Part shown: piece after piece, positions 10,540-39,825 of the stretch
Position numbering within the stretch: position 1 is the first letter of the stretch
How the letters are laid out: every line of letters starts with the position of its first letter
Virus record (IMG/VR): IMGVR_UViG_3300028590_000006
Location: 1 to 44,099 of that record
Length of the DNA: 44,099 nt
Source of the DNA: a virus
Strand: one strand, 5' to 3'
Program-made: the position numbers and the translations under genes
Notes under the pieces: model-generated
Database searches by the model: none
What the model was told of the DNA's origin: nothing
What the model saw: the letters and a program-made list of their open reading frames with translations, nothing else

Positions 10540-10598
10540 TCTCCTAGGGTATCCCTACCTGTATATAGATACGGCGACGGTCTATGCTATACGGTCCC
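10540..10598 (-). promoter_or_regulatory. Late promoter P2 and structured leader (core at 10582-10598)
   Basis: On the minus strand GGGACCGTATAGCATAG (10598-10582) has a T7-like layout: a recognition half followed by TATA-G, with the G as likely +1. The next 40 bases (CCGTATCTAT, then AGGGATACCCTAGG) recur with small changes behind promoter P1 at 31859-31875. TAGGGATACCCTA can fold into a small 5' hairpin ahead of the AGGAG of the first late gene. It lies only 17 bases after the RNA polymerase stop, ideal for phage-polymerase-driven late transcription. Confidence 0.7.
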
Positions 10599-10614
10599 GA
10601 AACGCCTCACTCCC

Positions 10615-13176
10615 TCAAGAGAAGAAGTAAGGCGAAGCGAGAACCTGCCGCAGATCGAGTGTGCCACGCTCAGGAGGCGGGGACAGATCGTATCGAACAG
10701 CAAAGTCAGCCAGAGGATCGTGCTGCTCATACATGGCAACAAATACCTCGCGGATGATCCTATACAGCTTAGCGGCGTCTGTGGCATGCGTACCGTAGTC
10801 GTCATGGATCATTGCAAGGTCCATACCCTCGGCAGCGGCGCATACAGCGACCATACGCATATGTGCTGCGTCATGGCTATGTACGAAGTTCGGAGCTACT
10901 CCGTTCTTATGCTGGCGCGGGCAAGGACCATCACCATCATCCTGATATATCCTGATCTTAGTATTGCCCGCCAGCTTGGTGTTGATCCTATGCAGGCTCA
11001 ACTGCTGGTAGTACTGTATAACCGGGAACCCATCAGGGACAACCCAGCGAATGCCCGTGTCATTCTCAAGGATAGGCTTAGCAGCCCGCTGTAGCCAGTC
11101 CATAGCCTCCTTGGCCTTGACGACGACCTCCCCGATAGCTTCCCAGACGAAGTGGCTGAGATACGTGGCGGCGGGGCCATATTCGTCCCGGCTAAACTCA
11201 GGAGCCTTACCCATCTTGAGATAGTCAGCGACAATGAAGTCAGCGCAGCTAAACCGGGTCGAGCCGTAGGGCAGCGTCATAACTGAGCGCTTCACCAGCG
11301 ACCGGCTGATACCATGCTTAAGCCACATGGTCCTATGCTTCGCCATCAACTCTGCACGGTGACGGGCCTTACGGTTATCCTCGTCTCCGTCTATAAGATC
11401 GGGAACCGTAGGAGCCGCAGCCCGCTGTAGCAGCAGGGTGGTCACGTCCGCAACGTTCTGGTAGATATCATTGGGAAGATCGCTAGGCACCAGATTGGTA
11501 GCCTTGCCGCCCACTTCATCCCGAAGCATCGCAGAGAAGTTCTGTAGCCCGTTGCAGCTACCATCCATACCAATAGGCAGATGGCTCAAGAACGTGTCAG
11601 GAGTAGTGCGCCATTCCGCGTACTCAAAGCACCATGCCAAGAATTGCAGAGGCACGTCTGCTTCCTGCCAGCCCCGGTTATTAATCGGGTCTTCGGCGAA
11701 CGACATGATACGATCATGGTGTTCCTTAACCCACTTAACTCGGTTGTCCAAGGATACCTTGTCGTAGCCCCACTTATTAGCACCATTGACACAGAACCAC
11801 TTGACAGCATCCAGCGTGTCCAAGGGCTTGCCTTTAGCGAACCGAAGTAGGGCCTTCTGTAGATCGCTGCCCTGAGGGCTTATGCCGGTGGTCTGTGCAT
11901 AGAGCCGACCACGGAAGTCCGCAAAGTACACAAAGTAGATTTCATCGAATGTCGAGAACTTGTCGGCAATAGACGTGGCAGTAACGAACCTCCCGTACTT
12001 AGTGCCCCTAAGCTTCATTTCCGTATGCCAGATGCGCTTAGCCGACTTCCATGCCCGAAACTCGTCCTGCTCGATAGGCGACATGTCCTCAACCTTCATA
12101 TCGGCCATAAGCCAGTCAGGGAGGGGCGGTGCCGGTACTTCGGCTTGCGATAGTATTTCTTCCATATCGAAGTGCTTGGCAACTTGGCGGATAGCAGTGA
12201 GCATCTTGTTATTCACCTGCCACTTAACCCGCTGCAATGCGTTGATCGCGGCGAATACTCGGGTAAGGTCATGCTCAGCCACTTCGGACCACGCACCCCG
12301 AGCCTTGACGCAGAACGGCATAATGCGGCGCATGTCATTGGTGTGGTACCCGCCGTCCATGATGCTAACCCAATCCTTTGGCTGCTCAATGCACGGGAGG
12401 AAGTACGGCATGGTCTCACTGACGAGCGACTTAATCTGCCCGATAAACTCGACAGCCTCTTCGCTGAGAGAAACCTCAATCGAATTGCGAACCAAGTCAG
12501 CCCGCTTGGCCGAGATACTGGCGCGCTCAATGTCGAGCATACCTATAACCGACAGTTGGTCGATCAGATACGCCCCGACTTGCTGCTGCGCGGCTGGTCC
12601 CCATTCAGGAACCGGGATACCGTTTTCTTTCATCTTGAGGCGGAACATGTTGACCTTATGCCGCTCGGACTTGCTCATGCGGCGCTCAAGATCGTTCACC
12701 AGTGTGTAGAATAGATCAGGGCTTTCTTCGCTGAACATCGACAGCATAAGCTCATGGTGGACCGCTCGACCAACTCCGGCCATAAGGCGGCGCGCCGAGT
12801 TACCCCGGCCCTCGCTAGGAGCACCTACAAATAGCTCGTTGAGTACGGCGCGTACAGCAAGGAACGCCACCGCCTCCGGGTCCATAGGCTCCAACAGGGT
12901 GACGTGGGCCTGATTGCGGCCCGGCTTCTTAGTGGCCAGATCCTCACGGATGATGGTCGCCAACGGTAGGACATAGCGGCTAAATACCGCCTTGGCGTAG
13001 GGATTATTGTCGGCGCTGCCAGCGTCCTCGTTACGAGCCATCATCCGTTCCGCTCGGGCCTTCCCGAACGCAGCCATCTGCCTCTCAAGCTCTGCCTGAG
13101 TAAGCTGGCTTTCGGCGGACTTGTTCATGTCGGTATCGTTCGCAGCAGCTTGGATGGAGGCAGAGAAAAGCGTCAT
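10615..13176 (-). CDS. Single-subunit DNA-directed RNA polymerase, T7-type (853 aa)
   Basis: The phage polymerase that transcribes the middle and late genes. Catalytic residues line up with T7 RNAP (D537, K631, Y639, D812): motif A GMDGSCNGLQ gives D538, motif B LVKRSVMTLPYG gives K629 and Y637, motif C MIHDDYGTH gives D792. The end, LASPYFFS, resembles the aromatic C-terminal foot. The region before APNFVHSHD (about 728-760) is the expected specificity loop. I start at ATG 13176 (MTLFSASIQA), five bases after AAGGA; the longer frame upstream has no ribosome-binding site. The gene lies after ligase and before the virion operon, the phiKMV arrangement, so it is made relatively late and then drives the late genes next to it. 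Confidence 0.98.
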   Translation of the reverse strand: MTLFSASIQAAANDTDMNKSAESQLTQAELERQMAAFGKARAERMMARNEDAGSADNNPYAKAVFSRYVLPLATIIREDLATKKPGRNQAHVTLLEPMDPEAVAFLAVRAVLNELFVGAPSEGRGNSARRLMAGVGRAVHHELMLSMFSEESPDLFYTLVNDLERRMSKSERHKVNMFRLKMKENGIPVPEWGPAAQQQVGAYLIDQLSVIGMLDIERASISAKRADLVRNSIEVSLSEEAVEFIGQIKSLVSETMPYFLPCIEQPKDWVSIMDGGYHTNDMRRIMPFCVKARGAWSEVAEHDLTRVFAAINALQRVKWQVNNKMLTAIRQVAKHFDMEEILSQAEVPAPPLPDWLMADMKVEDMSPIEQDEFRAWKSAKRIWHTEMKLRGTKYGRFVTATSIADKFSTFDEIYFVYFADFRGRLYAQTTGISPQGSDLQKALLRFAKGKPLDTLDAVKWFCVNGANKWGYDKVSLDNRVKWVKEHHDRIMSFAEDPINNRGWQEADVPLQFLAWCFEYAEWRTTPDTFLSHLPIGMDGSCNGLQNFSAMLRDEVGGKATNLVPSDLPNDIYQNVADVTTLLLQRAAAPTVPDLIDGDEDNRKARHRAELMAKHRTMWLKHGISRSLVKRSVMTLPYGSTRFSCADFIVADYLKMGKAPEFSRDEYGPAATYLSHFVWEAIGEVVVKAKEAMDWLQRAAKPILENDTGIRWVVPDGFPVIQYYQQLSLHRINTKLAGNTKIRIYQDDGDGPCPRQHKNGVAPNFVHSHDAAHMRMVAVCAAAEGMDLAMIHDDYGTHATDAAKLYRIIREVFVAMYEQHDPLADFAVRYDLSPPPERGTLDLRQVLASPYFFS

Positions 13177-13283
13177 GTTAGTCCTTAGGTTCGGGTTTTC
13201 TCGAATATAACGGCCCCGGAAGCGGCAGAGGCAACTGCCGGGGTACATAGCGTTCTTTGAAGTTTCCGCGTGGCGGACAGGGC
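13177..13283 (-). other. Ligase-RNAP gap with nested hairpin (stem 13214-13243)
   Basis: On the minus strand the 107-base gap can form CGGCAG-TTGCCT-CTGCCG (13240-13223), or alternatively CCCCGG pairing with CCGGGG (13243-13238 with 13219-13214). The two folds exclude each other, as in attenuators. No U-tract follows directly; GTTATATTCGAGAAAA comes next and then the AAGGA of the RNA polymerase gene. It could stabilise the upstream mRNA end or tune polymerase expression. Confidence 0.5.
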
Positions 13284-14147
13284 TTATACATCAGGCTCGG
13301 TTTTGTCGAACCGGATACCCTTAAAGCGAGGCTCCCGCAGCAACCGGAGCAACCCGTTGCTGCTGTAGTCCATCGCCTCTACTTCAACAATGTCTCCAAC
13401 AGCGGGGACAAGAGCCGCGTCGTGAGGTAGCCCGCTGCCGACACCGAGACGAGACCCCCGGAAGTCAACAACAAGCTTATAGACAGCACGACCGGTTTTC
13501 TCTCCGATTGCAGTATTGACTTCAAGAACCCGTAGATCAAAGCTGAGCTTCCTCTTGACCTTAATGATCTCACCAGTGGTGCCTGATCCGGCCTTCCATA
13601 GCCCATTGGGGTCACGAAGGACCAGCCCATCATAGCCGCCTTCATCGACAATCTCGTTGCACTTAGCCTGCACGGCGGCCCATGACCCGAGGTATCCAAA
13701 GCCCTTGGCAGACTGGATACGATCATCCATCACGCCATCAAGCTCGTCGGCGATATACGCCCTCTCAAGGAACGGCATGAAGGTGGAGCCGTAATCGAAG
13801 TCGGACTTCGGTATAACATCATGCAGCATCAGGAATAGATCGTCATTGGTCTGCTGGCGACGGAACGCCCCGCTAATCAGGTTGAACTGATCCTTGCCCG
13901 GCCACCATGCCTCGCCAATGAACACGAAGTCAGGGGCGCGTTGATGCAGGTACTTGGCCACATCGTCGAGACACTGATAGCTCTCACCGGTACGGGAGAA
14001 GGTCTGGCCATCCTTGAGGACAGCACAGCAACCATCGTACTTGCGGAACGCCATGAACCGTTCGCCGTACTGGTCGGGCAGTAGACGGCGAGGCTTTACA
14101 ACCTTGCCGACTTCAACTGCCTTCTGGATGATGTATTCCTTGCTCAT
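13284..14147 (-). CDS. ATP-dependent DNA ligase (287 aa)
   Basis: A small ATP-dependent ligase sealing nicks during phage replication and recombination. Motif I KYDG has the adenylated lysine at K36. Motif III is FIGEAWW near residue 94, motif IV is EGGYDGLVLRD near 190, and motif V is IIKVKRK near 211. A C-terminal OB-fold of about 75 residues follows (VGDIVEVEAMDYSSNG). T7 ligase has 359 residues, so this is a compact form without large insertions. I use ATG 14147, which overlaps the upstream TGA as TGATG with GGAG seven bases before. An earlier in-frame start at 14198 would lie inside the HAD gene. Confidence 0.93.
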   Translation of the reverse strand: MSKEYIIQKAVEVGKVVKPRRLLPDQYGERFMAFRKYDGCCAVLKDGQTFSRTGESYQCLDDVAKYLHQRAPDFVFIGEAWWPGKDQFNLISGAFRRQQTNDDLFLMLHDVIPKSDFDYGSTFMPFLERAYIADELDGVMDDRIQSAKGFGYLGSWAAVQAKCNEIVDEGGYDGLVLRDPNGLWKAGSGTTGEIIKVKRKLSFDLRVLEVNTAIGEKTGRAVYKLVVDFRGSRLGVGSGLPHDAALVPAVGDIVEVEAMDYSSNGLLRLLREPRFKGIRFDKTEPDV

Positions 14148-14596
14148 CAATAATCTCCCGGTGCGACTTGAAAACACATGATGCCCTCTTCGCGCCACAT
14201 ATTAACGACTGCAACCCGATCCTCCAGAATAAGGTCAGGTCTCCCATACCATTCCAAATAATTGCGTTTCCACACATGATCGGGTACTTCCCCCATGTTA
14301 TCGTCTCGCATACGGATTGGAAGCTTATCCAGACCAAAACGATGAAGCCACTGTCGGGTAATTTGCTCGCAAGCTTTCCCCCGCCCTGTCCAGAACTCCA
14401 CCTTATGCTTAGCTGCTACCAGTGCCTTCACAGTTTCAAGTACAGGAACGATAGCCTTATCGTCGATGCAAGCCTCTCGCCAAGCGGTCCAATCCTGATC
14501 GACCCATCCCGAGGTTGGGCATTTCGGTAATGTTAGCAGGTGGACCTTGTGTGATCCGTCACACAGGGTTCCATCTAGATCAACAGCTACAAACAT
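14147..14596 (-). CDS. HAD-superfamily phosphatase, polynucleotide 3'-phosphatase-like (149 aa)
   Basis: The N-terminus MFVAVDLDGTLCD is HAD motif I (DxDGT, nucleophile D6). WTGRG around residue 70 is motif II with the conserved Thr. Downstream come ITRQWLHRFG and a WYGRPDLILEDR segment in which ED is the acidic motif IV. The organisation resembles the phosphatase domain of T4 polynucleotide kinase and phage 5'-nucleotidase/PNKP proteins, but the kinase half is absent. Overlap with the ligase gene (TGATG) suggests a nick-healing pair: remove a 3'-phosphate, then seal. A mononucleotide phosphatase is the alternative. Confidence 0.75.
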   Translation of the reverse strand: MFVAVDLDGTLCDGSHKVHLLTLPKCPTSGWVDQDWTAWREACIDDKAIVPVLETVKALVAAKHKVEFWTGRGKACEQITRQWLHRFGLDKLPIRMRDDNMGEVPDHVWKRNYLEWYGRPDLILEDRVAVVNMWREEGIMCFQVAPGDY

Positions 14597-15099
14597 TACT
14601 TGCTTGCCCGACTAGGAGGGCACAGCCCGGCTTCCTCAAGCTCGGTCTGCAACAATGCCAGCGCCCGCCACGCCAAGTTGCCGCTATGGCGGATGCCGTC
14701 GCTATCCATACGGCCACGGTCGATAAGGTGGCGCATGATCTTGTTTTCGTGGTCAGTGGACTTTCCTCGCGCCCAGTGCATCTCCTGACCGGGATTATGC
14801 TTGAGTGACCCCTGATGGCTGATGAAGGCCACGTAGGCCAGCGCATTCGGGAAGTAATCCAGACATCCCCGAGCAATAGGCATCGCTGCCCGGCTCGCGT
14901 CATCTTCGGGAAGGCTCAGCCCTTCGGGGGCCGGGCCGGGTCCAACAGGAGGCTTAGCCGGTTCCTCATACATCGGGCCGGTATCGGTATCCGTGCATGG
15001 GGTGGCGTACCCATAAGCCATCTGCCCCCGGCAAGCCGCTTGATGCGGGCAACCGGGGCACGTAGGGCCAATCTCCTTAACTGGCAACGGTGTCTTCAT
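14596..15099 (-). CDS. dATP/dGTP pyrophosphohydrolase-like protein (DUF5664 type, 167 aa)
   Basis: The first 60 residues hold a CPGCPHQAAC cysteine cluster (with CRG and CTD nearby) followed by a Pro/Glu-rich linker. From about residue 75 the sequence FPNALAYVAFISHQGSLKHN...HWARGKSTDHENKIMRHLIDRG...GIRHSGNLAWRALALLQTE matches my memory of the helical N-terminal domain called dATP/dGTP diphosphohydrolase (DUF5664), in which conserved His/Glu/Asp residues bind metal. The stop overlaps the HAD start (TAATG), so nucleotide control and nick repair share one operon. The family call is good; the exact substrate is inferred. Confidence 0.7.
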   Translation of the reverse strand: MKTPLPVKEIGPTCPGCPHQAACRGQMAYGYATPCTDTDTGPMYEEPAKPPVGPGPAPEGLSLPEDDASRAAMPIARGCLDYFPNALAYVAFISHQGSLKHNPGQEMHWARGKSTDHENKIMRHLIDRGRMDSDGIRHSGNLAWRALALLQTELEEAGLCPPSRASK

Positions 15100-15100
15100 A

Positions 15101-18811: not shown

Positions 18812-18813
18812 AG

Positions 18814-22192: not shown

Positions 22193-23447
22193 AACGACCT
22201 CTCTGTCCGTCGAAGACCACATTAGCCTCAAGACGTTTCGGCCCACCCTCTCGGGCAAGCTTATTCTTATTGAGGCCGAGGTATCGATTATCCGGCGTAG
22301 CCGACTGATACCCAATAGTCATGATGAAATCCGCAGCGCCCTGCTTACCGGTCTTGCTGTCCTTAAGCATGTGCTGTAGAGGGAAAGCAAGCTCCGCTCC
22401 CTCCGCTGATATCTGTGAAGTCGCAAGTACAACACAGTCATGTTTGACTGCGAGAACCCGCGCCCACTGATACATCGCCTCAAGAAGCTGGTCAGTACGC
22501 TGCCCGTTGTTGTTGGCCAATCCTCCGAACTTGATGTTGTCCACCATGTCGAAGATGATAAGCGCGGGAGGATACAGCCGGATGATGTCTTCAATGTCAT
22601 GGTTCCAGTAATCGTGAACATCCATGATCTTGAGACAATTGCGCCCGCCGAGGGCATCAATGTAATCCTGCCGGATAGTACCCTTCTTGCTCCGGTCAAC
22701 TAGGTCCGAGTACGTAGCATTAAGCGCAGACTGGTAGGTCCGCGTAACGATGCGCCTGCCCGGCCCCTCATTGTTGAACCACAGGATATGCCGATCCTCG
22801 CCGGGATACAGCTTATCGACTTGCGGAGCAAAGAATGTGACTGCATCCGTAAGCATCGTGGTCTTGCCCACGTCAGGCCTTGCGGCGATGATACCGAAAT
22901 CCCCTGCAAGTAGGGGCCGCATGCTCTCGTTGATTTCCGGTTGCCGCCAGTGGAAGCCCACGTCATTGTCAACTGCTTCAAGCTCAGCATCGATATCGAC
23001 TTCGACGAACGGTGTCTTGACCTTGCGGTTAGTATCCAGTTCGTACTGCTCAATCACTTGGCGGAGTGCAGGGCCTAGGTCAACCTCTTCCCCCGTACCA
23101 TAGCGCTCAAGTAGATCGGTTAGTTTTGATGCGGTATCTGCGGCGACCAGCCGTTCATGCAGACCGGCTTCAAGTCTTTCATCCAACGGCTCATGCACTT
23201 TAGCGAGCACTGCTTGGAAGTACACCTTACGCTCATCAGAGAGCTTGGGGTGCGCGAAGTTCTTGAACCACGTCCAGAACGGTTCCTGTTCAATGCTGTC
23301 AACCTCGAACTCCGTATAGTATTTCTTGAAGTCACCGAGGATAACCTTAGTGCCATCATCAAGAACATGTTGAGGGATAGCCCTGTACAACTTGTCGAAT
23401 TTGTCCCGAGTACGCAGGAGTTTCAGGATTGTAATGTCAAGGCTCAA
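22164..23447 (-). CDS. Replicative DNA helicase, DnaB/T7 gp4B-like (427 aa, TTG start)
   Basis: A RecA-fold hexameric helicase. An N-terminal helical region (about 1-140) is followed by Walker A ARPDVGKTT (189-197), Walker B ALIIFDMVDNI (D300), and the later SQISAEG and KTGKQGAADFIMTIGYQSA segments, corresponding to motifs H3 and H4, with an LGLNKNKLAREGG arginine region. No primase domain is present; that is the gene upstream, as in phiKMV. I choose TTG 23447 because GGGAG lies seven bases before it and no ATG is near. The start overlaps the primase end by 11 bases. A longer frame to 23516 has no ribosome-binding site. Confidence 0.92.
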   Translation of the reverse strand: MSLDITILKLLRTRDKFDKLYRAIPQHVLDDGTKVILGDFKKYYTEFEVDSIEQEPFWTWFKNFAHPKLSDERKVYFQAVLAKVHEPLDERLEAGLHERLVAADTASKLTDLLERYGTGEEVDLGPALRQVIEQYELDTNRKVKTPFVEVDIDAELEAVDNDVGFHWRQPEINESMRPLLAGDFGIIAARPDVGKTTMLTDAVTFFAPQVDKLYPGEDRHILWFNNEGPGRRIVTRTYQSALNATYSDLVDRSKKGTIRQDYIDALGGRNCLKIMDVHDYWNHDIEDIIRLYPPALIIFDMVDNIKFGGLANNNGQRTDQLLEAMYQWARVLAVKHDCVVLATSQISAEGAELAFPLQHMLKDSKTGKQGAADFIMTIGYQSATPDNRYLGLNKNKLAREGGPKRLEANVVFDGQRGRYVTPTIVQG

Positions 23448-24246
23448 GAATAAACTCCCTAATCTGATCGACGCTATAATACTTAGGGTCTTGCTCAGCA
23501 CGGATAATGCGAGCATCTACACCTAAGGCTCGAAGCTGTTGTGTCACACGCAGCCTGCCCTTCCGGCCTGCTGCATCGGGGTCCAGCCATACGGCTACAG
23601 ATACCCCTAAATTCGCTATCTCAGCCGCCACAGCGTCAGGCATGGCGGTCCCGAGTAGGGACCATGCGGTCGCCACTTGACCTACCTTGATGGCGCTCAA
23701 AATGTCCTCCGTAAGGACGAGCGGGCCGGGTAGGCTATACGGTCCTGATTTATAGATAGGCTTATCGATCTGAGGATTGAGGTACTTGGGCCTTTCAGGA
23801 TCGAACCCGCGCGCCTGCCAGTAAACCAATCTAGGGCCGTCGAGTACGGGAAGCACGACACGCTTGATGCGGTCACACCAGTATATCCCATGCTCTTTGA
23901 TGATGACATTAGATAGGCCACATTTATACAGCCATACCCTAGCCGAGGCTGGCCAAGTACTAGGGTTGAAGTTGGCTGGCATGGGCGGGCGGGGATCAGC
24001 TTCAACTGCCGCGTCCGCTACCCGCTGCTCTCTAAGCGCAGCTATGCGTTCCCCCAAGCTAGGCTTAGGATGCGGGACGAAGCCCGGCATTGAACAGCGA
24101 TAGCACCACGCCTTAAATCCGTTCTCAGCGTGCTCTACTAGGAGCTTATTACCCTCTCCACAGATATGAGGGTGCATGGCCTTCCTGCCCCGGTCCAGTT
24201 GCTGCGCTAGATGCAGCCACTCGCTGGGGTCAAGGTAATCGGACAT
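23437..24246 (-). CDS. DNA primase with Toprim domain, T7 gp4A N-half-like (269 aa)
   Basis: Makes RNA primers for lagging-strand synthesis. The N-terminal zinc module has C29, H39 and CYRC (C48, C51). The Toprim domain shows LVLTEDILSA (E180) and VWLDPDAAGRKG (D222, D224), followed by EQDPKYYS. T7 joins primase and helicase in gp4; here they are separate overlapping genes, as in phiKMV. ATG 24246 lies downstream of a phage-promoter core at 24255-24263. A second core lies inside the gene at 23735-23743 and could serve the helicase. Confidence 0.92.
   Translation of the reverse strand: MSDYLDPSEWLHLAQQLDRGRKAMHPHICGEGNKLLVEHAENGFKAWCYRCSMPGFVPHPKPSLGERIAALREQRVADAAVEADPRPPMPANFNPSTWPASARVWLYKCGLSNVIIKEHGIYWCDRIKRVVLPVLDGPRLVYWQARGFDPERPKYLNPQIDKPIYKSGPYSLPGPLVLTEDILSAIKVGQVATAWSLLGTAMPDAVAAEIANLGVSVAVWLDPDAAGRKGRLRVTQQLRALGVDARIIRAEQDPKYYSVDQIREFILEP
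23735..23743 (-). promoter_or_regulatory. Putative phage promoter core P4 inside the primase gene
   Basis: On the minus strand the context is CAGGACCGTATAGCCTA. GGACCGTATAGC is identical over 12 bases to the core of P1 and P2. It lies about 290 bases before the helicase start and in its direction. It falls in coding sequence (encoding SGPYSL), so chance matching to codons is possible; identity with intergenic copies makes function plausible. Confidence 0.45.
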
Positions 24247-24254
24247 GATAGCTC

Positions 24255-24263
24255 CTATACGGT
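24255..24263 (-). promoter_or_regulatory. Putative phage promoter core P5 before the primase
   Basis: ACATACCGTATAGGAGCT on the minus strand contains ACCGTATAG, shared with P1-P4. Its TAG is at the same time the stop codon of the preceding 76-residue gene, and the following GGAG-type sequence serves the primase ATG nine bases later. A transcript starting here would have almost no leader, so this may be a weaker or fortuitous site. Confidence 0.4.
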
Positions 24264-27029: not shown

Positions 27030-27236
27030 TTAGCGGGCGAACCCGCCGTATTGCTTGATAACGCGAGGATCGAGCGGGCTATGCTCGACATGGCACCAGA
27101 GTACCTTGTACAGGATATCACCCACCTTGACCGCACCGTACTGAGCGCAAGCCTTATCGTAGTCGGTGGAATAGTACCGCTCTACTTCGCCAGACCGCTT
27201 TACGGCGAGGCACTCGTATTGATTGGTGTTACCCAT
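27030..27236 (-). CDS. Small early protein of unknown function (68 aa)
   Basis: I place the start at ATG 27236, overlapping the previous stop by eight bases with GGGG eight bases upstream; the longer frame to 27311 lies inside the preceding gene. The protein (MGNTNQYECLAVKRSGEVER...VKVGDILYKVLWCHVEH) looks like a small beta-barrel of four strands. No family recognised. Confidence 0.55.
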   Translation of the reverse strand: MGNTNQYECLAVKRSGEVERYYSTDYDKACAQYGAVKVGDILYKVLWCHVEHSPLDPRVIKQYGGFAR

Positions 27237-29256: not shown

Positions 29257-29270
29257 AATGGTGTCTCCTA

Positions 29271-29912
29271 TCAGTTAGCCGCGACGGGATCGGTAATGAC
29301 CGGCTGGTTCCCTCTCATCATCACATTATCCGCATGGATGTCCCAGCGCACACAGTTACGTCCGGTAGCAGGCTCCGCATCGGCTCTGGTGTTGTGCGCA
29401 GACATAGCCTCTTGCAAGGTGCGCAAGTAGATCGAGCTACCCACCACCGTGCGATCAGGCTGACGACTATGCTCGCCCCCCGTTAGATGCCGAGTGTACG
29501 CGCCATGGCCCGCGTCCATAGTCTTGGGCGCAACGGTCAGTAACTCAAGCTCGCCCATCCAACCGCCTTTAAACTCAAGGATACCGTAGTACCTCGGAGC
29601 GAGGTCATCATAATCCTTGGTAAGCATAGCGGTACGCGCAGCCATCAAGCCACCCGGATCGCGCTGCGCTACCTTAATTACCCGCTTCATGCGGCGGACG
29701 TCTTGACGGTAGGCTGGGACAGCATCCCACATACGCTCGGGACTGTACTGGTATTGGTAGGGATTGATCGCAGTCCGCTCATCCACTTCGATTACGAAGA
29801 CGTGGGCGTAGAACCCATTGCCTATGCGCATAGCGCCAAGCTGGTTCAGACGACTAAAGGCTTCGTCCATGTCACGGCACGCGCCCAACTGAGGAAGGAT
29901 CATCGCAACCAT
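29271..29912 (-). CDS. T7 gp0.7-like protein kinase (213 aa)
   Basis: Kinase signatures are recognisable in order: a glycine-rich loop RIGNGFYAHVF (30-39), RVIKV with the probable ATP-binding Lys at K80, the hinge-like region ILEFKGGWMGELELL, a catalytic loop WDIHADNVMMR (D191, N196), and a DFG-equivalent VITDPV (D208). The closing 'DIHxDN...VITDP' pattern is what I know from T7 gp0.7 and its relatives, Ser/Thr kinases that phosphorylate host RNA polymerase and other proteins early in infection. The gp0.7 C-terminal host-shutoff domain is absent: the protein ends five residues after VITDP. It is the second early gene. ATG 29912 lies eight bases after GGAG. Confidence 0.75.
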   Translation of the reverse strand: MVAMILPQLGACRDMDEAFSRLNQLGAMRIGNGFYAHVFVIEVDERTAINPYQYQYSPERMWDAVPAYRQDVRRMKRVIKVAQRDPGGLMAARTAMLTKDYDDLAPRYYGILEFKGGWMGELELLTVAPKTMDAGHGAYTRHLTGGEHSRQPDRTVVGSSIYLRTLQEAMSAHNTRADAEPATGRNCVRWDIHADNVMMRGNQPVITDPVAAN

Positions 29913-30050: not shown

Positions 30051-30647
30051 TCAGCCGACCATTTCAAGGGCGTCGGCACTAGCCGCTTCCGGCTTAGCCG
30101 GTGCAACCTTGTCCAGCACAGACTGGATGTCCACCAGCGCAGCCGCGTCGGCGTCGGACAGCTTGCCCTTGCCCTTGGCAGTCTCGGCCCGCTTCATCAG
30201 CATAGCCAGCGCCTCAGCCAGCGAGAAATCGCGGCTCGACTTTTCGGGCGGGGTCCAGAAGGGCGAGGCGGTGGCGGTGATAGCCAGATCGACCAGCACG
30301 GCACGCTCGCGGCGATCCTCGGACGGAACCAGCTTGGCCGACCATTTGCCGGTCTTGCTGTCGAGCGTCATCAGGATATCGCTATGTCCCTCGACCCATT
30401 CGGCGAACGCCTTTGCTCGGGTATGCTTACCCAGCGAGTTTGCCAGCATGGCCGCACCGTTCGCGTCCTTATGCTCGATAGCGGCATACAGTCCGGCTAC
30501 ACCGGCAGCGTGCATATCGACATCGAGATTGGCCGCACGGGTAGCAATGCTGATGCACAGCCTGCTGATCTTGGAAACAGAATAAGAATTGCCATCACGC
30601 AGGGCCGCAAGGACCGTGGTGACGCGCTGCTCAAACGTCTTGCTCAT
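30051..30647 (-). CDS. First early gene, unknown function (198 aa)
   Basis: This is the first gene behind the long non-coding region. I start at ATG 30647 (MSKTFEQRV), seven bases after GGAG; two earlier in-frame ATGs lie on or before that site. The protein is helical: VTTVLAALRDGNSYSVSKISRL, then AAIEHKDANGAAMLANSLG and AFAEWVEGHSDI, a strand pair (MTLDSKTGKWSAKLVP), and a Lys/Ala-rich C-terminal helix. No known motif. Position predicts an early host-directed role. A palindrome (30662-30681) and a 20-base inverted repeat lie directly upstream. Confidence 0.65.
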   Translation of the reverse strand: MSKTFEQRVTTVLAALRDGNSYSVSKISRLCISIATRAANLDVDMHAAGVAGLYAAIEHKDANGAAMLANSLGKHTRAKAFAEWVEGHSDILMTLDSKTGKWSAKLVPSEDRRERAVLVDLAITATASPFWTPPEKSSRDFSLAEALAMLMKRAETAKGKGKLSDADAAALVDIQSVLDKVAPAKPEAASADALEMVG

Positions 30648-30661
30648 CGTCATTCTCCACA

Positions 30662-30681
30662 TACTAGCGGATTGCTAGTGA
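30662..30681 (-). repeat. Palindromic element, copy 2 (ACTAGC-GGATT-GCTAGT)
   Basis: This is the second copy of the element at 27855-27875. ACTAGC and GCTAGT pair around GGATT. It ends 15 bases before ATG 30647, and its right half overlaps the 20-base inverted repeat arm at 30674-30693, so two alternative folds are possible. Confidence 0.6.
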
Positions 30682-30823
30682 TAAGCGGAGACATTCGCAC
30701 GGCAATAGGCTCGCCATCATGATTGAGCATACATTTCCGGAATTGCACAGGCTAGTCGGCGGATAAGTCCCGACCTAACAGCACATACGCGCTGGTTCTA
30801 TCCTGTCTCCGCTTATCACTAGC
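30674..30823. repeat. Perfect 20-base inverted repeat with 110-base loop
   Basis: GCTAGTGATAAGCGGAGACA at 30674-30693 is the exact reverse complement of 30804-30823. A perfect 20-base pair in a 44 kb sequence is not expected by chance. The loop holds no ORF. In RNA this would be a long helix of the kind cut by RNase III; in DNA it could be a cruciform. Confidence 0.85.
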
Positions 30824-30859
30824 CCGATTATAACCCGTGCAGTGCACAGGATCGGGCTA
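30820..30859. repeat. Strong nested hairpin TAGCCCGAT/ATCGGGCTA
   Basis: Nine-base arms at 30820-30828 and 30851-30859 enclose a second stem, GTGCA-G-TGCAC (30837-30847). It touches the right arm of the 20-base repeat. On the minus strand the loop-side sequence GGGTTATAATC contains TATAAT, but no good -35 is visible. No U-tract, so it is not a typical terminator. Confidence 0.65.
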
Positions 30860-31337
30860 ACGATTTGCGGTAGGTGCCTAGCGTTCTGGCTGGCTCAAGC
30901 TCGGGTCGCACTCCCTGCTTATGCTATCAGCGTTGCCCCTAGATCGGTAGCGTTTGGGATGGCTGATACCTACTGTATCAACCCGCTCGACCGCTTGCCC
31001 TAGCCTTACCATGCCTACCGTAGCAGGACTGATTGGCAGTATCCGTTGCAAGTACCGTCTGACGTGGATCGCGATGCACTAGCACCTTGTTCACAGCACA
31101 GGCTACGCATTAGGCGCAGTGTTACTGTCTATGCCTGTCGGAACCCCCGTGCTGTCGGGTTATCTCCGCACGTCCTGCTATTGCTAGCTTCAACGCTTTT
31201 CTAGGATGTTGCCATCCCGGCTTCCATCCGCATCGCCCTATGTCGAAAGGTGCCACAATCCCCGCTAGGTTCATGCTTACCCAATGATGACAGCATAGGC
31301 GCTGCGTCGGTTATAGCTGTGATCCTCACAGTCGGCA

Positions 31338-31828
31338 CCTAGGTTCTGCTAGGCGTACAGTCAGCGGATGATGCCGCTATGGCCGCTCCCCGTTATTCGC
31401 GTCCGGTTAAACCGGTTGGCTCGGGAGCCGGTGTTGATGACCGCTAGCATAGAGCCAACTTCGCGCCAGTCAACCGCACATGTAGGCTACACAGTGCCTA
31501 GGTGCAGAAAGGGCCGATGCGGTGGCTAGAAGCCGTTGCAGTCAGTGCCATCAATCTAGGGATATCCGAGCCTATTGCAAGCCCCTAATTGCAGAAAATG
31601 AAAATATACAGATACCGTAATATATCCAATAGGTTAGCCCTAGGTATCATCCTTATTGCGAACCATTCTTAGCGCGCGGGTATCGTGTATCCCTAGGTTC
31701 TCTAGGGTATCCATGCCTCTCATGGTCCCTGCCCCATGTATCCCTAGGTAGCTCCTAGGATCATACCCTTATGTCATCCCGCCATAGATCAGAGACGCAT
31801 TCTCATAATCCCCGTGGTTATCCCTAGG
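31338..31828. repeat. Cluster of seven CCTAGG palindromes (several as TATCCCTAGG)
   Basis: CCTAGG starts at 31338, 31497, 31639, 31692, 31743, 31754 and 31823: seven copies in under 500 bases where about 0.1 is expected. Three lie in the longer word TATCCCTAGG (31688, 31739, 31819). The same GGGATACCCTAGG follows promoter P2 at 10540. Elsewhere CCTAGG is seen only singly (e.g. near 9065 and 41380). Confidence 0.8.
31446..31473 (-). promoter_or_regulatory. Candidate host sigma70 early promoter
   Basis: On the minus strand TTGACT (31473-31468) and TATGCT (31451-31446) are separated by 16 bases and point to the early genes about 800 bases on. It is the best sigma70-like pair I found in this orientation within the non-coding region. 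Weaker pairs exist near 31938 (TTGAAT) and 32033 (TTGATG...TATCAG). Confidence 0.35.
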
Positions 31829-31858
31829 GTATCCCTCCGTCAGATAGATACGGATTGC

Positions 31859-31875
31859 CTATGCTATACGGTCCC
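31859..31875 (-). promoter_or_regulatory. Phage promoter P1 in the non-coding region
   Basis: GGGACCGTATAGCATAG on the minus strand is identical over 17 bases to P2 at 10582-10598. The following bases also match in blocks (CGTATCTAT, then AGGGATACCCTAGG), giving a ~60 bp duplicated promoter-leader. It points into the early region, so the phage polymerase could re-transcribe early genes or prime replication near the genome end, as phi-OL/phi-OR promoters do in T7. Confidence 0.7.
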
Positions 31876-32183
31876 ATAATCAACTAGGGATAATATGCAG
31901 TAAAATGAGATAGATAGGCCTCTTATCCACACGTATTCAACCTTAAGCATAATAACAGGATTGACACAGGGATATGCGCTGTCATACTGGTAATACATCG
32001 ATCGATACACGTGCTGATAATGGTATATCCTGCGTCATCAAAGGGGTACACGGGGGATACACACGCTCATCTGATCTGAGGTACCCCCTCGCATAACAAT
32101 ATCAAAATTTGGGTTTAGGCATTTTGAACCTGTCAGAAATATGGACACATCCATCAGACAATCCATGATCCACAGGAGGCCCG

Positions 32184-32213
32184 CTGGAAGCCCGGAAGGA
32201 CCGGGAGGCCCAG
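32184..32213 (-). terminator. Hairpin behind the lysis genes (possible late terminator)
   Basis: On the minus strand CTGG-CCCGG-TCCTT-CCGGG-CCAG forms a nine-pair stem with a small internal loop, about 50 bases after the Rz1 stop; a TACC-TTCG-GGTA mini-hairpin precedes it. No U-tract follows, so termination by host polymerase is doubtful, but a phage polymerase could pause here. Confidence 0.35.
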
Positions 32214-32262
32214 AGATACCCGAAGGTAGCCTGTGCTGCTCCACGGCCCGTTCCACGGCGTT

Positions 32263-32550
32263 TCACGGGGTGTTTGCTGGCTCAGCAGGGATCAGCTTGT
32301 TCTCGGTCGCCCACTTCCGGATTGCCGCCTTATCAGCGTTGCAGACCCGGAGGTCATTACGGACAGACCGATACGCGAGGACGATATCCTCGTTAATCTC
32401 AAGCTTCACGGGAGTTTCCTTGCAGTCCGCTGCGAGCGAGTACGGGAACCCTAGAGGGGCCTTATTCGCGCAAGCTGGCAATAACGTCAGCAGGGATAGG
32501 CTGCTTAGCCCAATCAGGATTTTTCTTGAGAGCTTCGATGGTTTTAACAC
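32263..32550 (-). CDS. Rz1-like outer-membrane spanin lipoprotein (95 aa)
   Basis: This ORF is embedded in a different frame in the end of the Rz gene and extends beyond it, the classic overlapping Rz/Rz1 arrangement. LSSLSLLTLLPAC is a lipoprotein signal with a lipobox (LPAC); the mature protein would begin at Cys and is Pro/Ala-containing with an EINEDIVLAYRSVRNDLR helix. It joins Rz across the periplasm to fuse the membranes at lysis. The start is uncertain: GTG 32550 lies ten bases after GGAG and TTG 32556 four bases after it. Confidence 0.78.
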   Translation of the reverse strand: MLKPSKLSRKILIGLSSLSLLTLLPACANKAPLGFPYSLAADCKETPVKLEINEDIVLAYRSVRNDLRVCNADKAAIRKWATENKLIPAEPANTP

Positions 32551-34096: not shown

Positions 34097-34097
34097 A

Positions 34098-34541
34098 TTA
34101 GGCGGTGACAGTCACGCTGGCCGTGATCGATCCAGCCTTGTGGGCCGAACCCTCAGCCACGTTGGCCGTGATGACCGCCGTACCGGCAGCAACGCCCGTA
34201 ACCAGCCCTGCGCTATTGACAGTGGCCACAGCGGGATCGCTCGACGAATACGTGGCCGCACCCGAGCTACCACCCTTGCCCAGAGTAAGCTGCTGCGTCG
34301 CCGCGACAGCAAAGGACGAGGTAGGCGGGGTCAAGGTAAGCACCGGGATCGCCTTGCCGATCGTGGCAGCAGCCACAGCGCACGCCGTGAAGAAGTCAGC
34401 AAGCTTCTGGGCACCGGGATGCGCGCCAGCCGGATACGACATAGCTACGACTTCGAGTGCGCTGATCGCCTTAGCAGAAATACGACGCAGATGATAGCCG
34501 TTAGCGCCGGTATCCGGGGAAGGGAGGGATGCTTCTTGCAT
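34098..34541 (-). CDS. Virion-type protein with C-terminal BIG2 Ig-like domain (147 aa)
   Basis: I start at ATG 34541, eight bases after AGGAG; the gene overlaps the terminase end by 41 bases in another frame. Residues 1-60 are a separate N-terminal part (NGYHLRRISAKAISALEVVAM). Residues 68-147 form a bacterial Ig-like group 2 domain: VLTLTPPTSSFAVAATQQLT, then YSSSDPAVATVNSAGLVTGV and AAGTAVITANVA, ending in strand VTVT. Such domains decorate phage capsids or tails and bind carbohydrates weakly. Location between terminase and endolysin is unusual; I infer an accessory head or tail decoration. Confidence 0.78.
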   Translation of the reverse strand: MQEASLPSPDTGANGYHLRRISAKAISALEVVAMSYPAGAHPGAQKLADFFTACAVAAATIGKAIPVLTLTPPTSSFAVAATQQLTLGKGGSSGAATYSSSDPAVATVNSAGLVTGVAAGTAVITANVAEGSAHKAGSITASVTVTA

Positions 34542-36321
34542 TGGAATTGCTCCTGAGATATTTGTTGAACACCGAACCACCACGGCCCGGAGCAGTATTC
34601 GACCAGCGGTCCTTCATCATAGGATCGCGCATGGCTTCGTTATATTCGCGCTCACGCGCCTTCTTGATGGCATCGGACTGGTCAATAGCCAGAACCTTAA
34701 GCCAGTAACGCACCGCGCCTTCGAGAGCATCAACACGGTCATCGTGATTGAGACAGCCTTTGTCGCGGGTAATCTTGCTAAGCTGGTGGAACAGACTGTA
34801 CAACTGCCGCTGTGCAGCAGGGTACTTGATAAGGCTGTCCCGGTCCTCATCGATAACTGACTGGTTAAAGATAAGGGAGCCTCGCGCTATAACGGGTTCC
34901 AGAGTTTCGATGATACGAAGCTCCTTCTGCCCGGTGACGAAATCGTCTTCTACCGCGCACTCGTGAGCTTGTCGGAGAATAGGAAGCCAGACCTCCGTAA
35001 AGGCGCCATAGCCCATATTCTTCTCGACCACGACCTTGTTGACCTTCCATCGCTCAGCGATATCGGCCAAGGTACGCATCTGCTCGACGTTGTAACCACC
35101 CGGCACGCCGCCAGCGGACAACACGTAAATGTTGCCGTTGAGGAAGCCAGTCACCGCGTAGCCGGTTTCGTCCCCGTTCTTACCGCCACCAGCGGGATCG
35201 ACGTACATCATGATCCCTTGCAACTTCGCTACGTCATCACTCACCTTCACAGGGGTGTTGATCTTATACGAGGTTGTATGGATGCTGATGTCCAGAAGAC
35301 TGCCACCGCCGAAGCCTCGGGCAACGGACAGCGGGTAGTACTCACCGCCAAGCGCCATGAGGACAAGCTGCTCTACCTTTAGAGGGTAGCGAGCCGCGTC
35401 CGCAAGCTTGGTGTTGAGCATGTGCTGTAGCTGGAAGTAAGACGGTCCCTGATCCAATTCCTTGAACTGTAGGATGCCTTCGTCAATATACGTAGGATCG
35501 ACAGGCTTGCCCTGATCCCCGAGCATACCGCCACCATAGGCGAGAGACGGGTCTTTCTCCAAGCGGGTACGAATGTACGGCGCTAGGTGATCCCCGTAGT
35601 TCTCCATCTGCTCTGCGTTCGGGAAGCGTCCCGGCCAGATGCGAACGGTGAAGCCACGGGAAGGAAGCGTGTTGTACACACTCTCCTGAGACTGCGGCGT
35701 CCCCAGATACACGATGCGACCATTGGTACAGATCGACGTGAAGTCTCGGGTCAGGTCCATAAGCTGTTCGCGCATCAACGCGGTGCGGGAGTTCTTAGCG
35801 CTCTCAATATCGTCTGCAATGAGCAGATCGGCGCGCTTACCCTGCATGTTACCCGTGATACCGATACAGGCCACGGAAGGCGACTTATCGATGCCCTTAA
35901 GCGTGTAGTGAACGTCGAACGCCTCAACTGAGGTCCGGTCGCCATTAGAGGGATCGGGCCGGAGACATTCGAGTTCGTCCATCGTCATAAGGATGCGAAC
36001 GATAAGAGTAGAAATTTCGTTAGCCTGCGTACCACCTGCGGACAGGATGAGGACACGGGCCGAAGGGTTCTGGATCAGCGTCCAGACCGCGAAGGCAGCA
36101 GTGATCGTAGTCTTAGCCTGACCACGCTGCGCTTGGATCATAATGTTCTGAGGGCCGTAGCACAGGAATGATCCGATATCCCGCTGCACCGGCGAAGTCT
36201 TGAAGCCCAAAAGGTCCATCACGTCCTGCAAGAACGGATCGAACTCGGAGTAATGCTCCTGAATTACTTCAAGGGTACGCCAGCGCAGGAGAGCAGCATC
36301 GTTGCCCTCCCGCATAGCCAT
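34501..36321 (-). CDS. Large terminase subunit, T7 gp19-like (606 aa)
   Basis: The DNA packaging motor. Walker A-type loop AQRGQAKTT (64-72), Walker B LLIADDIE (166-173, D170/D171/E173), a coupling-motif-like YLGTPQSQESVY (205-215), and RNase H-fold nuclease residues MMYVDPAGGGKNGDE (D375) and NHDDRVDAL (D527, D528, D531). T7 gp19 has 586 residues. ATG 36321 overlaps the small terminase stop (TAATG). T7-like enzymes cut concatemers with duplication of the ends, predicting direct terminal repeats in the virion DNA that this circular assembly does not show. Confidence 0.95.
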   Translation of the reverse strand: MAMREGNDAALLRWRTLEVIQEHYSEFDPFLQDVMDLLGFKTSPVQRDIGSFLCYGPQNIMIQAQRGQAKTTITAAFAVWTLIQNPSARVLILSAGGTQANEISTLIVRILMTMDELECLRPDPSNGDRTSVEAFDVHYTLKGIDKSPSVACIGITGNMQGKRADLLIADDIESAKNSRTALMREQLMDLTRDFTSICTNGRIVYLGTPQSQESVYNTLPSRGFTVRIWPGRFPNAEQMENYGDHLAPYIRTRLEKDPSLAYGGGMLGDQGKPVDPTYIDEGILQFKELDQGPSYFQLQHMLNTKLADAARYPLKVEQLVLMALGGEYYPLSVARGFGGGSLLDISIHTTSYKINTPVKVSDDVAKLQGIMMYVDPAGGGKNGDETGYAVTGFLNGNIYVLSAGGVPGGYNVEQMRTLADIAERWKVNKVVVEKNMGYGAFTEVWLPILRQAHECAVEDDFVTGQKELRIIETLEPVIARGSLIFNQSVIDEDRDSLIKYPAAQRQLYSLFHQLSKITRDKGCLNHDDRVDALEGAVRYWLKVLAIDQSDAIKKAREREYNEAMRDPMMKDRWSNTAPGRGGSVFNKYLRSNSNARSIPPFPGYRR

Positions 36322-36659
36322 TAGTTAAGGTTCCTGTCGAGGAACGTCATATCGTCAACAGCGTCCCGAAGAACCTGCCCGCTCATCCGTGCCTTCTGCT
36401 TATCCTTAAGCTTCTGCAACAGACCACCCATGACATTATCTTCTGCCGGGGCACACGTGATATTGTTATCCTTGAGGAACTTGGTAGCCGCTGCAATGAT
36501 AGCAGCCGAAGGCGGAAGACGACGAGGCGGAACCTCGACCGTTTCCCCGTCAGCAGTCTCTTCGGTGTAGCCCGGAAGCTCGTCACCGTCAAGAGCCTCG
36601 CTGAGGACTTGCGTTACCTTTTCGTGCAGCAGACCTAGCGATTGTTCATTCGCCGCCAC
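36321..36659 (-). CDS. Small terminase subunit, T7 gp18-like (112 aa, GTG start)
   Basis: This 112-residue protein lies directly before TerL. A helical N-terminus (LGLLHEKVTQVLSEALDG), a Pro-rich link, then a helix (SAAIIAAATKFLKDNNITC) and a basic C-terminal part (LLQKLKDKQKARMSG) fit the small DNA-binding terminase of T7-like phages (gp18, 89 aa). The start is GTG 36659 with AGGAG seven bases upstream; no ATG is available in frame. Confidence 0.85.
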   Translation of the reverse strand: MAANEQSLGLLHEKVTQVLSEALDGDELPGYTEETADGETVEVPPRRLPPSAAIIAAATKFLKDNNITCAPAEDNVMGGLLQKLKDKQKARMSGQVLRDAVDDMTFLDRNLN

Positions 36660-36706
36660 AAAGCGTCTCCTTGTAATGCGGGAGGCCGGTTAAAGCCTCC
36701 CGAGTG

Positions 36707-39256
36707 TTAGTAAGCGAGAGTGTCGTTACCCAGAAGAGTAATCGACCCCAGCGGGAACCTACGCTCATAGCCCGGCAAGCCGGGATGATCCGTATGCGCC
36801 GTAATGCTATCAATCTCCGTGTTCTCGATCACAACGCGATGCGTAATGTCGATATCGAACGTCTTGAGCAGCAGCAGGCCGGTAGCACCGTCCACAGCCG
36901 CATCGTTGAAGTACGAGTTGCGGATAATGATATTCGCCGGGTAGAACCCAATCGGGACATTGTGAATGAGTACATACGAGTACCCGCTCTCAGTACCCTC
37001 ACGGATGAACCTACAGGTATCGATAAGGATAGTCTGACCATCCGAGATACCCGAGCCAATCAGCGGGGCGTTATGCCCATCAGGCACCTTGTAGTTCACG
37101 CCGAACGACACGGTACGCACCGGGTTATTCATCGTGCCCGTGCTAGCATCGAGGGTCGTAGCACCGAACCCATCGATATGATCGCAGTATCCCTGCCCGT
37201 TATTGATAACGGTGCCGAACTCAAGGCGGCTCGACCTATGCCGTTCAAAGACCGGCGCGGTGTCAGCCGGACCTTCAACGTCACTCTCGACGATGGTGTC
37301 ATGCTTAAGTCGGATAGTCATAAACGGAGGAACGACGATCACACTCTGTCCAGTGCCGCTGTACACGACATTCGGGACAATCTCATGATAAGCGTCCCCA
37401 ACGACCTCAACGAGGTACTGATTGGAATACGAACACACATCCGAGATAGGGTACTTAGACCGAGTGATATCGCCAACATCAGGACGATACGTCGAAGCAA
37501 CTGCATCCACCAGCGAATTGAAGTGAGTAGCCGTAGGCGTACCCGGACCAACCGTCAAGTGAACAGCGGGCTTCGCAGCGACGAGGAAGTCATCCATCAT
37601 ATCCTTGGTCAAGATACGATCCTTGCGGATACCCGTAGCAGCCATAGTGGTGTACGTGGTCGTAGACTTGGTGAACAGGATTTTCGACCAGTCAACCCAG
37701 AGCATACAGGCAATACCCGTGTAGTTCGGCAGGCTGTCCCTATAGAGCAGCATCTGCGAGGGCTGGTAGGTAATCGGCCCCGTATTAAGGATAGTACGCT
37801 GAGCGACGTCCATATTCAGGGTAAGGTCACGAAGCCACAACCGGATACGATACAAGTCACTTCCAGCGAAGTAGATCGTCTCGTAATTGATGATGTAATC
37901 GTGGTTCTTATACCCGCCTTCGATGTAGCAATCCTTGATGAACCCAATCGCATACTCATCGGTAGCGGTAGGGATAAAGCAAGTATCCTTCTTGGCACTC
38001 TCAGCTTTTGCTGCCGTAGTAGCCGCTGCCGATACAGCCGTAAGCTGAGCAGCGTTGAACATAATGCGCCAGTTGGCAAGCTTGGTCGAGATTTCCTGAT
38101 TGAACGCCGGACCTTCCCCGTCGCCTTCATCGGTCCCGAAGTCCACCACGGCCAGTCCAGACGCCCCAGAGCCGCCCACAGGGAGCAGAATGAGGGTCTT
38201 GATGCCCGCCATACCCGAGCCATCGCCAAGGCCACCAGCGATGCCTGAAAGCGACGCCACGACCACACTGTCAGACTGCCGGGCAATCTCAAGGCGAATG
38301 CGCGGCGTTCCGCCAGCACCAAAGTCGTCGCGCAGCCAGCTAGAGATATAGTAGCCAACCGAGAAATCCAAACCTGCCATCGACAGATTGAGAATACGAT
38401 TAAGCGCACTATTCGCAGCCGGGGCTACCTCGAAAGGAGTGAGCCGCGCAGCAATGGAGTTAAGGTAGTTCGTAGCCGGAAGACTGATCTGCGACCCGTC
38501 CGGGTTCAGAGCAGGTGCAGGCGTTGCCACGTTGTTATTGAAGAACAAGACGATAGACTTGCTGTCAGCAGCCGCTACCCAATAGTGTTCCATAACACCG
38601 AACAGATTACCCACAACGGCGGTGGCCGATGCTCCGGAAAGTCCTGCCGAGGCAGTGAAGTCGAGCGTAGGCGGCGTAGTGCCGGTGCCCAAGCCACGCT
38701 TCGTAATGGTGATGTCGGTAACGATACCGCCCTCAACCGTGAACGTGCCCTCCATACCCGTAATGCTGCCACCGGCAAACCCGAGGGCGAATGTACCATC
38801 CGCACCACCCGAACCGCCGACAAGCGACGTAGTACCAAGCACGCCCTTAGGCAGGTTGGTCGCATAGGTGTTGGGGAAGGGGGTCGAGGAAACGCCAGTG
38901 ATGGCCGTAACCTGAGCAAGGGCCGCAGTGGCCTGATCTGCCGCAGTCTCCGCATCGGCAGCATCCTGAGCAGCATCAGCCGCAGCAGTAAGGACTTCCG
39001 TGCGCGTAGTGGCGATTACTGCCGCATCGGCAACAACAATATCCTTGGCGGCGACACTCTCGTTACGAGCCGCTACCGCAGTGTTAACGAGTTCTTCGAT
39101 CTGGTCGCCATCGAACGAGCCGAGGATACCACCGGGGGTGACACCATCGCCAAGACGCAGAGCCTTGTTAGTCTCATCGACAACAATTTCGCCCAGAGCA
39201 AGAACATCGTCCCCGAACGTATCGTTAGGGGCATGAGGAAGAATAAGTCGAGACAT
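36707..39256 (-). CDS. Tail spike / tail fibre distal protein (849 aa)
   Basis: The start at ATG 39256 overlaps the stop of the fibre anchor gene (TAATG). The N-terminus (LILPHAPNDTFGDDVLALGE...NKALRLGDGVTPGG) is a short repeat common in phage fibres. A coiled, Ala-rich stretch follows (AAARNESVAAKDIV...AAQDAADAETAADQATAAL), then Gly-rich segments and a long beta-rich body. The C-terminal third has asparagine and valine ladders (NIIIRNSYFNDAAVD, HRVVIENTEIDS) typical of a right-handed beta-helix. It is the likely receptor-binding or polysaccharide-degrading part. The long open frame on the other strand (36704-38248) is a shadow. Confidence 0.83.
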   Translation of the reverse strand: MSRLILPHAPNDTFGDDVLALGEIVVDETNKALRLGDGVTPGGILGSFDGDQIEELVNTAVAARNESVAAKDIVVADAAVIATTRTEVLTAAADAAQDAADAETAADQATAALAQVTAITGVSSTPFPNTYATNLPKGVLGTTSLVGGSGGADGTFALGFAGGSITGMEGTFTVEGGIVTDITITKRGLGTGTTPPTLDFTASAGLSGASATAVVGNLFGVMEHYWVAAADSKSIVLFFNNNVATPAPALNPDGSQISLPATNYLNSIAARLTPFEVAPAANSALNRILNLSMAGLDFSVGYYISSWLRDDFGAGGTPRIRLEIARQSDSVVVASLSGIAGGLGDGSGMAGIKTLILLPVGGSGASGLAVVDFGTDEGDGEGPAFNQEISTKLANWRIMFNAAQLTAVSAAATTAAKAESAKKDTCFIPTATDEYAIGFIKDCYIEGGYKNHDYIINYETIYFAGSDLYRIRLWLRDLTLNMDVAQRTILNTGPITYQPSQMLLYRDSLPNYTGIACMLWVDWSKILFTKSTTTYTTMAATGIRKDRILTKDMMDDFLVAAKPAVHLTVGPGTPTATHFNSLVDAVASTYRPDVGDITRSKYPISDVCSYSNQYLVEVVGDAYHEIVPNVVYSGTGQSVIVVPPFMTIRLKHDTIVESDVEGPADTAPVFERHRSSRLEFGTVINNGQGYCDHIDGFGATTLDASTGTMNNPVRTVSFGVNYKVPDGHNAPLIGSGISDGQTILIDTCRFIREGTESGYSYVLIHNVPIGFYPANIIIRNSYFNDAAVDGATGLLLLKTFDIDITHRVVIENTEIDSITAHTDHPGLPGYERRFPLGSITLLGNDTLAY

Positions 39257-39801
39257 TAGCCCCAAGCTCCATAATCAGTTTCAAATTCGCCGCCCCAAGT
39301 GCCATAGTCCGTGACCTCGACGCCAGACTTTATAATCGTGTCGAGATAAGGAGTAGTGACGGGAGTACCGTCTTCTCCTAACAGGATGAAGCCGGGGGCA
39401 GTAAGGTGAGCGCCATGCGGGGTAGTGATCGATGTGCGGAGATTAAGTATCTCCTGATCCTGTGCCTCTGCTGCCAGAAAGACAGCCTGCTTGGCGTTAG
39501 TGTCTAGACTGATCTCAGTGACGATAGCGCCATCAGAGAAGTCTGCTAGGGGGGTATTTCTCGGAGTTTCCCGATAGACCCGCAAGGTAAACCCAAGCGG
39601 CGGCGGGGTGGTCGTAAGGATAGTGAAGTCATTTACCCAAGTAAACGGCCACTCTACACCATTACCGCCCTGAAACATCAGAGAAGACTTTACGTGGTCC
39701 TTGCTAATATAGCCGCCAGAAAAGCTAATCTCAAACGTATTTTGGACACCATCACCCGGCCATTCATTTACGCTATACAGAACAAGCGTAGGATCAGCCA
39801 T
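39256..39801 (-). CDS. Tail fibre anchor protein, T7 gp17 N-domain-like (181 aa)
   Basis: The sequence LYSVNEWPGDGVQNTFEISFSGGYISKDHVK...FTWVNDFTILTTTPPPLGFTLRVYRETPRNTPLADFSDGAIVTE matches the conserved N-terminal domain of T7 gp17, which plugs the fibre into the tail. LRTSITTPHGAHL follows as a trunk. The gene stops at 181 residues and the body is supplied by the overlapping next gene, so the fibre is split into anchor and spike. It opens an operon: promoter core P3 lies 15 bases upstream and AAAGGA six bases before ATG 39801. Confidence 0.9.
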   Translation of the reverse strand: MADPTLVLYSVNEWPGDGVQNTFEISFSGGYISKDHVKSSLMFQGGNGVEWPFTWVNDFTILTTTPPPLGFTLRVYRETPRNTPLADFSDGAIVTEISLDTNAKQAVFLAAEAQDQEILNLRTSITTPHGAHLTAPGFILLGEDGTPVTTPYLDTIIKSGVEVTDYGTWGGEFETDYGAWG

Positions 39802-39816
39802 TGTAATTCCTTTGTG

Positions 39817-39825
39817 CTATACGGT
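39817..39825 (-). promoter_or_regulatory. Phage promoter core P3 before the tail fibre operon
   Basis: CTAGTACCGTATAGCACA on the minus strand carries ACCGTATAGCA, identical to P1 and P2 over 11 bases but with different upstream bases. It lies between the hairpin 39836-39853 and the fibre anchor gene, so it can drive fibre, terminase and lysis genes. Confidence 0.65.

Follow-up and report, generated by a model that had tools for sequence, protein, structure and literature searches.

The question raised by this window, the whole 44,099-nt stretch of viral DNA analysed here, is whether a nine-base word repeated along one strand marks the start sites of the RNA polymerase (RNAP) encoded by the phage itself. 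The record is a T7-like podophage genome that is circularly permuted compared to its relatives and carries its main genes on the minus strand. Its closest annotated relative is Sphingomonas phage Scott. By exact search we find five copies of ACCGTATAG, all on the minus (transcribed) strand and none on the plus strand. This agrees with the five sites listed in an earlier note on this DNA and with the contexts given there: a non-coding region, after the RNAP gene, before the tail fibre, and two at or in the primase gene. In 100 dinucleotide shuffles, the word occurs 0.19 times on average and at most once. The value matches the roughly 0.2 copies that the note had expected on one strand, but it covers both strands.

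Four of the five copies sit within a longer element of about TTYNGKACCGTATA followed by GCA, with predicted +1 positions at 10587, 23735, 31864 and 39817. The first copy (10585..10601, minus strand) reads TTCGGGACCGTATA followed by GCA, with G 10587 as predicted +1. It is located just past the RNAP stop codon, from where it would head the late (structural) genes, and its Scott orthologue is found at 29596. The second copy (23733..23749, minus strand) lies within the DNA primase gene (23437..24246, minus strand; phrog_47, Toprim_2), at the same place as in Scott and L005. The third copy (31862..31878, minus strand) takes the left-end position in the long non-coding region. This place is common to Scott, KSC, Percy, Cd1 and Lullwater, where it lies a short distance inside the left end or the terminal repeat. 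Downstream of the left-end copy, the non-coding stretch 31620-31850 contains a cluster of CCTAGGGATA / TATCCCTAGG repeats. The fourth copy (39815..39831, minus strand) is followed by a 16 nt leader, GCACAAAGGAATTACA, and then by the ATG of the tail fibre gene (39256..39801, minus strand; T7-tail N-terminal domain, PF03906), again at the same place in relatives.

Sites were scored with a profile from the Scott clade, each site left out in turn, and the maxima of 40 shuffles served as background. The copies at 10587, 31864, 39817 and 23735 score 29.9, 25.5, 22.2 and 15.4, respectively, compared to 12.1 for the highest shuffle maximum. The fifth copy of ACCGTATAG (24255..24263, minus strand), just before the primase start codon, lacks the upstream half of the element and scores -12.9, a value reached or exceeded in 586 sense windows. 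In Scott, no ACCGTATAG is found before the primase start codon. With its background-like score, the copy is rejected as a promoter; it is likely a chance match beside the ribosome-binding site. On these leave-one-out scores we therefore accept four sites and reject the fifth, which reduces the proposed five-member promoter set to four. A weaker candidate with +1 at 40502 was likewise rejected: its score of 7.4 does not reach the average of the shuffle maxima (8.5), and none of the Scott matches corresponds to it. The weaker relatives of the word (GGGACATA) that had been suggested as further promoters find no support: four copies, one of them on the plus strand, stand against 1.25 expected, a count reached in 4 of 100 shuffles and thus within chance, and the best profile hits include none of them. 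A literal search of the literature for the word gave no phage paper among the matches listed. In a scan of the sequence collection, a 14-base query, too short to inform, gave single matches in each of 47 contigs, and 18-base forms matched in the Scott clade only.

Scott contains ACCGTATAG at four sense positions: one copy follows the RNAP gene, one is internal to primase, one precedes the tail fibre and one is found in the long non-coding region. A further match is antisense and located elsewhere. The scan of related phages that the earlier note had proposed thus finds the same word at the same four places in Scott, and distant phages have their own versions. Directly behind the RNAP stop codon, the sequences of more than a dozen phages can be aligned ungapped. 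The aligned block reads approximately TTYNGKACC at about -14 to -6, followed by a variable stretch and then by a purine, C and usually A, and the alignment places the predicted start at the purine. TATAG is therefore mainly a feature of the window/Scott lineage and not clade-wide. Of the layout described before as recognition half, TATA and G, the upstream recognition block is conserved, while the TATA part is not kept in all relatives.

Genome scans seeded with each phage's own post-RNAP element detect three copies in KSC, Percy, Cd1, Brevundimonas BC, Babayka and L010, four in Lullwater and L005, and two in L007, which is a partial record. The relatives share copies at the left end, after the RNAP gene and before the tail fibre. 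The window, Scott and L005 have an additional copy in primase, and Lullwater has one at another place. Allowing up to four mismatches in 16 genomes, 48 sense copies compared to 3 antisense copies are found beyond the seeds. An independent de novo search finds repeated elements beside the RNAP gene and in distant gaps of P14, Ponderosa, f30-Xaj, L028, VSW-3 and KP34. Downstream of RNAP in G008 (L014), G012 (L023) and Paku (L053), a different repeated element is seen (TTTCGCTGGACCAAAAGAC, TTCATGTYCCAAGCAAGAC, GATTTCATGMCCCTMAGCA). It is closely preceded by an inverted-repeat match, possibly a hairpin joined to the promoter.

The promoter core differs between phages and is uniform inside each genome. 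L005 has the core ACCGTCTTG four times, L010 has ACATACCAAC three times and Lullwater has ACCGTATA four times; the three copies of KSC are identical in 18 of 18 bases. The primase-internal copy of L005 is ACCGTCTTGC with the CTTGC core, as in its three other copies. As L005 carries its own core inside primase, the residues Y-S of the window and Scott became S-C. Among relatives, the loop that contains this site is variable in length and sequence, and the change in the L005 primase is explained by a promoter constraint and not by a protein constraint.

The polymerase gene (10615..13248, minus strand) encodes a single-subunit T7-type RNAP of 877 aa (phrog_414, E 8.8e-290; PF00940, E 3.7e-101; T7 RNAP, matched over its full length, E 2e-116), and the T7 catalytic residues D537, K631, Y639 and D812 are conserved in the alignment. 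RNAP residues 1-657 are encoded with 100% identity on a 6.2 kb contig from another metagenome (L002), which means that this phage, or one very close to it, was also sampled there. In T7 RNAP, N748 contacts -10 and -11, R756 contacts -9 and Q758 contacts -8 (PMC5937735). The hairpin residues R754, N756, K764 and R766 of the window enzyme occupy the positions of T7 R746, N748, R756 and Q758. The specificity loop had been described as unlike that of T7. This holds at R756 and Q758, which are replaced by K and R, but R746 and N748 are kept. At T7 positions 746/748/756/758, we find RNKR in the window and the Scott clade, RNKA in L007 and L010, RNKK in KSC and Percy, RRFR in Cd1, BC, Babayka and Lullwater, and QRIK or QRMK in L009 and L022. 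N at T7-748 accompanies G at -10 of the promoter, and R accompanies A or T. With whole-RNAP distance allowed for, the distance between promoters is correlated with that between hairpins (partial Mantel r 0.315, permutation p 0.010), in a test that leaves some effects of shared ancestry in place. These data are suggestive of promoter recognition bases that change in step with the RNAP specificity hairpin.

The closest known system is that of phage VSW-3, whose RNAP promoter was proved experimentally as TTAATTGGGCCACCTATA, with a 5'-RACE start at GTA (PMC9624206). The two polymerases belong to the same RNAP family with 46% identity, and both promoters have a TTNGG block and a TATA followed by the G start. 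As read off the sequences, 10 of 15 bases are shared, ungapped at +1. The VSW-3 promoter has five genomic copies, including copies after RNAP, before the tail fibre and in a long non-coding gap, similar to the layout of the window. It differs by CCACC where the window has GACCG, and its residues at 746/748/756/758 are LKRR compared to RNKR. Next closest in sequence is the Syn5 RNAP promoter, ATTGGGCACCCGTAA (PMC6834552), which shares GG at -11/-10 and ACC at -8 to -6, with 9 of 15 bases matching ungapped; however, its RNAP is only 28% identical and the promoter lies inside the RNAP gene. With the T7 promoter, TAATACGACTCACTATA followed by G, the window element shares C-12, G-11, C-7 and TATAG; the equivalents of R746 and N748 are kept, and T7 promoters are likewise found just after RNAP (annotated phi1.1A/B). 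The recognition bases -10 to -8 and residues 756/758 differ, and RNAP identity is 32%. For KP34, the strong promoter T(A/G)ATGTTACAGGAGTA (PMC6834552) is unrelated in sequence, and its weak promoter ACTTTGGACATCCGTCAAGT is more similar to the window element; the three KP34 copies lie at the left end, after RNAP and in the late region. A repeat-based prediction for KP34 (PMC4411677) failed in vitro, and the true promoter was found just after the RNAP gene (PMC6834552), which is the rule applied here. The promoters of JG068 were predicted by PHIRE (PMC3765740); they are a prediction only and differ in sequence from the window element.

Given the synteny with Scott, the recurrence at the same loci across the lineage, the concerted change within genomes and the likeness to VSW-3, we conclude that the four TTYNGKACCGTATA elements followed by GCA are very probably promoters of the phage's own T7-type RNAP, as the earlier note had proposed. 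What the genomes show directly is the element itself with its orientation and positions, that it recurs at the same loci in relatives, and that its sequence varies together with the polymerase. By its sequence, the element would belong to a known kind, the T7-type phage RNAP promoter, of which this set would be a new member.

Binding of another phage or host protein, with the repeats serving as a host-sigma promoter or as sites for a replication or packaging factor, is the alternative that survives best, and we consider it quite improbable. The left-end copy occupies a kind of region that also harbours origins, packaging signals and host promoters, and several early proteins have no family match. 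A sigma-70 scan (TTGACA-N17-TATAAT) of 30600-32400 gave no minus-strand site at 31864, and directionality, the proximity to the start codon at the tail fibre, the likeness to the VSW-3 promoter and the covariation with the RNAP hairpin all favour the RNAP. Less probable still is that the repeats are localized single-strand nick sites as in phiKMV-like Pseudomonas phages, a reading raised earlier for the KP34 repeats (PMC4411677). The nick motifs of phiKMV-like and tf phages are indeed non-palindromic and present on one strand only (PMC3517423), but the phiKMV nick consensus CGACnnnnnCCTACTCCGG is absent from the window, the phiKMV-type site CGACnnnnnCCTA/CTCCGG (consensus from PMC3517423) has zero matches on both strands, and the tf motif occurs once, away from the promoter sites. 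Nicks also predict neither a post-RNAP copy in phage after phage nor covariation with the RNAP hairpin. A functionless chance or coding repeat fits one copy of five, 24255-24263, and is contradicted for the other four by the shuffle statistics, the leave-one-out scores and the same-locus conservation in relatives with other cores, which makes it extremely improbable for the set.

For recognition of the cognate promoters, the hairpin would read the major groove between about -11 and -7, and the duplex would melt over TATA, with the G of TATAG as the first base of the RNA. The early region would first be transcribed by the host polymerase. After its synthesis, the phage enzyme would then use the post-RNAP site for the late structural genes, and also the tail-fibre and primase sites. 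The left-end site would serve the early region again and might also have a role in replication or in entry of the genome, by analogy with T7 phiOL.

An ATCTRT element follows part of these promoters. In the window, ATCTAT is found at +16 of the left-end promoter (31844..31849, minus strand) and at +18 of the post-RNAP promoter (10565..10570, minus strand). Within one clade (window, Scott, L003, L005-L010, KSC, Percy, Cd1, BC and Babayka), ATCTRT is present at +10 to +35 of 23/23 left-end or post-RNAP promoters, compared to 0.18 expected, and at 0/13 tail-fibre or primase promoters. Where present, it is located at +12 to +35. It is absent from +10 to +35 at promoters of Lullwater, P14, VSW-3, Ponderosa, f30-Xaj and L028. 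The element was noticed post hoc and the clade is delimited by its presence, with the near relative Lullwater lacking it. In addition, the leaders are related by descent, and the element overlaps the start of the next gene in some phages. We therefore regard it as a lead and not as a result. ATCTRT resembles the T7 class II terminator ATCTGTT; an exact ATCTGTT is found near the Scott left-end promoter, and ATCTAT predominates elsewhere. The ATCTGTT signal stops T7 RNAP and also yielded terminated product with Syn5 RNAP, and VSW-3 RNAP is insensitive to it. In T7, phiOL and the primary origin are located at the places of these left-end and post-RNAP promoters. From these positions comes the tentative idea that both promoters form a composite promoter-ATCTRT unit, maybe with a class-II-like pause signal for origin priming or end processing.

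Promoter prediction has been named as the step that limits the use of new phage RNA polymerases (PMC11475235). A cell-free screen in that study included the Scott RNAP with the predicted promoter TCGGGTTGTCGATTTCCTTAC. Across the screen, all 16 enzymes whose DNA-binding domain is poorly T7-like were inactive, for which promoter definition was blamed. In Scott (L001), TCGGGTTGTCGATTTCCTTAC is a single antisense copy at 27185 and differs from the repeated element, so the assay, as described there, probably missed the cognate Scott promoter. The rule used here takes an element beside the RNAP gene and demands further copies at the left end and ahead of the tail fibre. It yields predicted RNAP-promoter pairs for a clade of Sphingomonas, Caulobacter, Brevundimonas, Aquamicrobium, Xanthomonas and Stenotrophomonas phages. 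Its unusual value is that a single comparison gives predicted promoters for a clade of polymerases without a tested promoter. The natural covariation between hairpin residues and promoter bases makes a recognition code directly testable, and since promoter versions change with the polymerase, start signals would become predictable for a group of untested phage enzymes.
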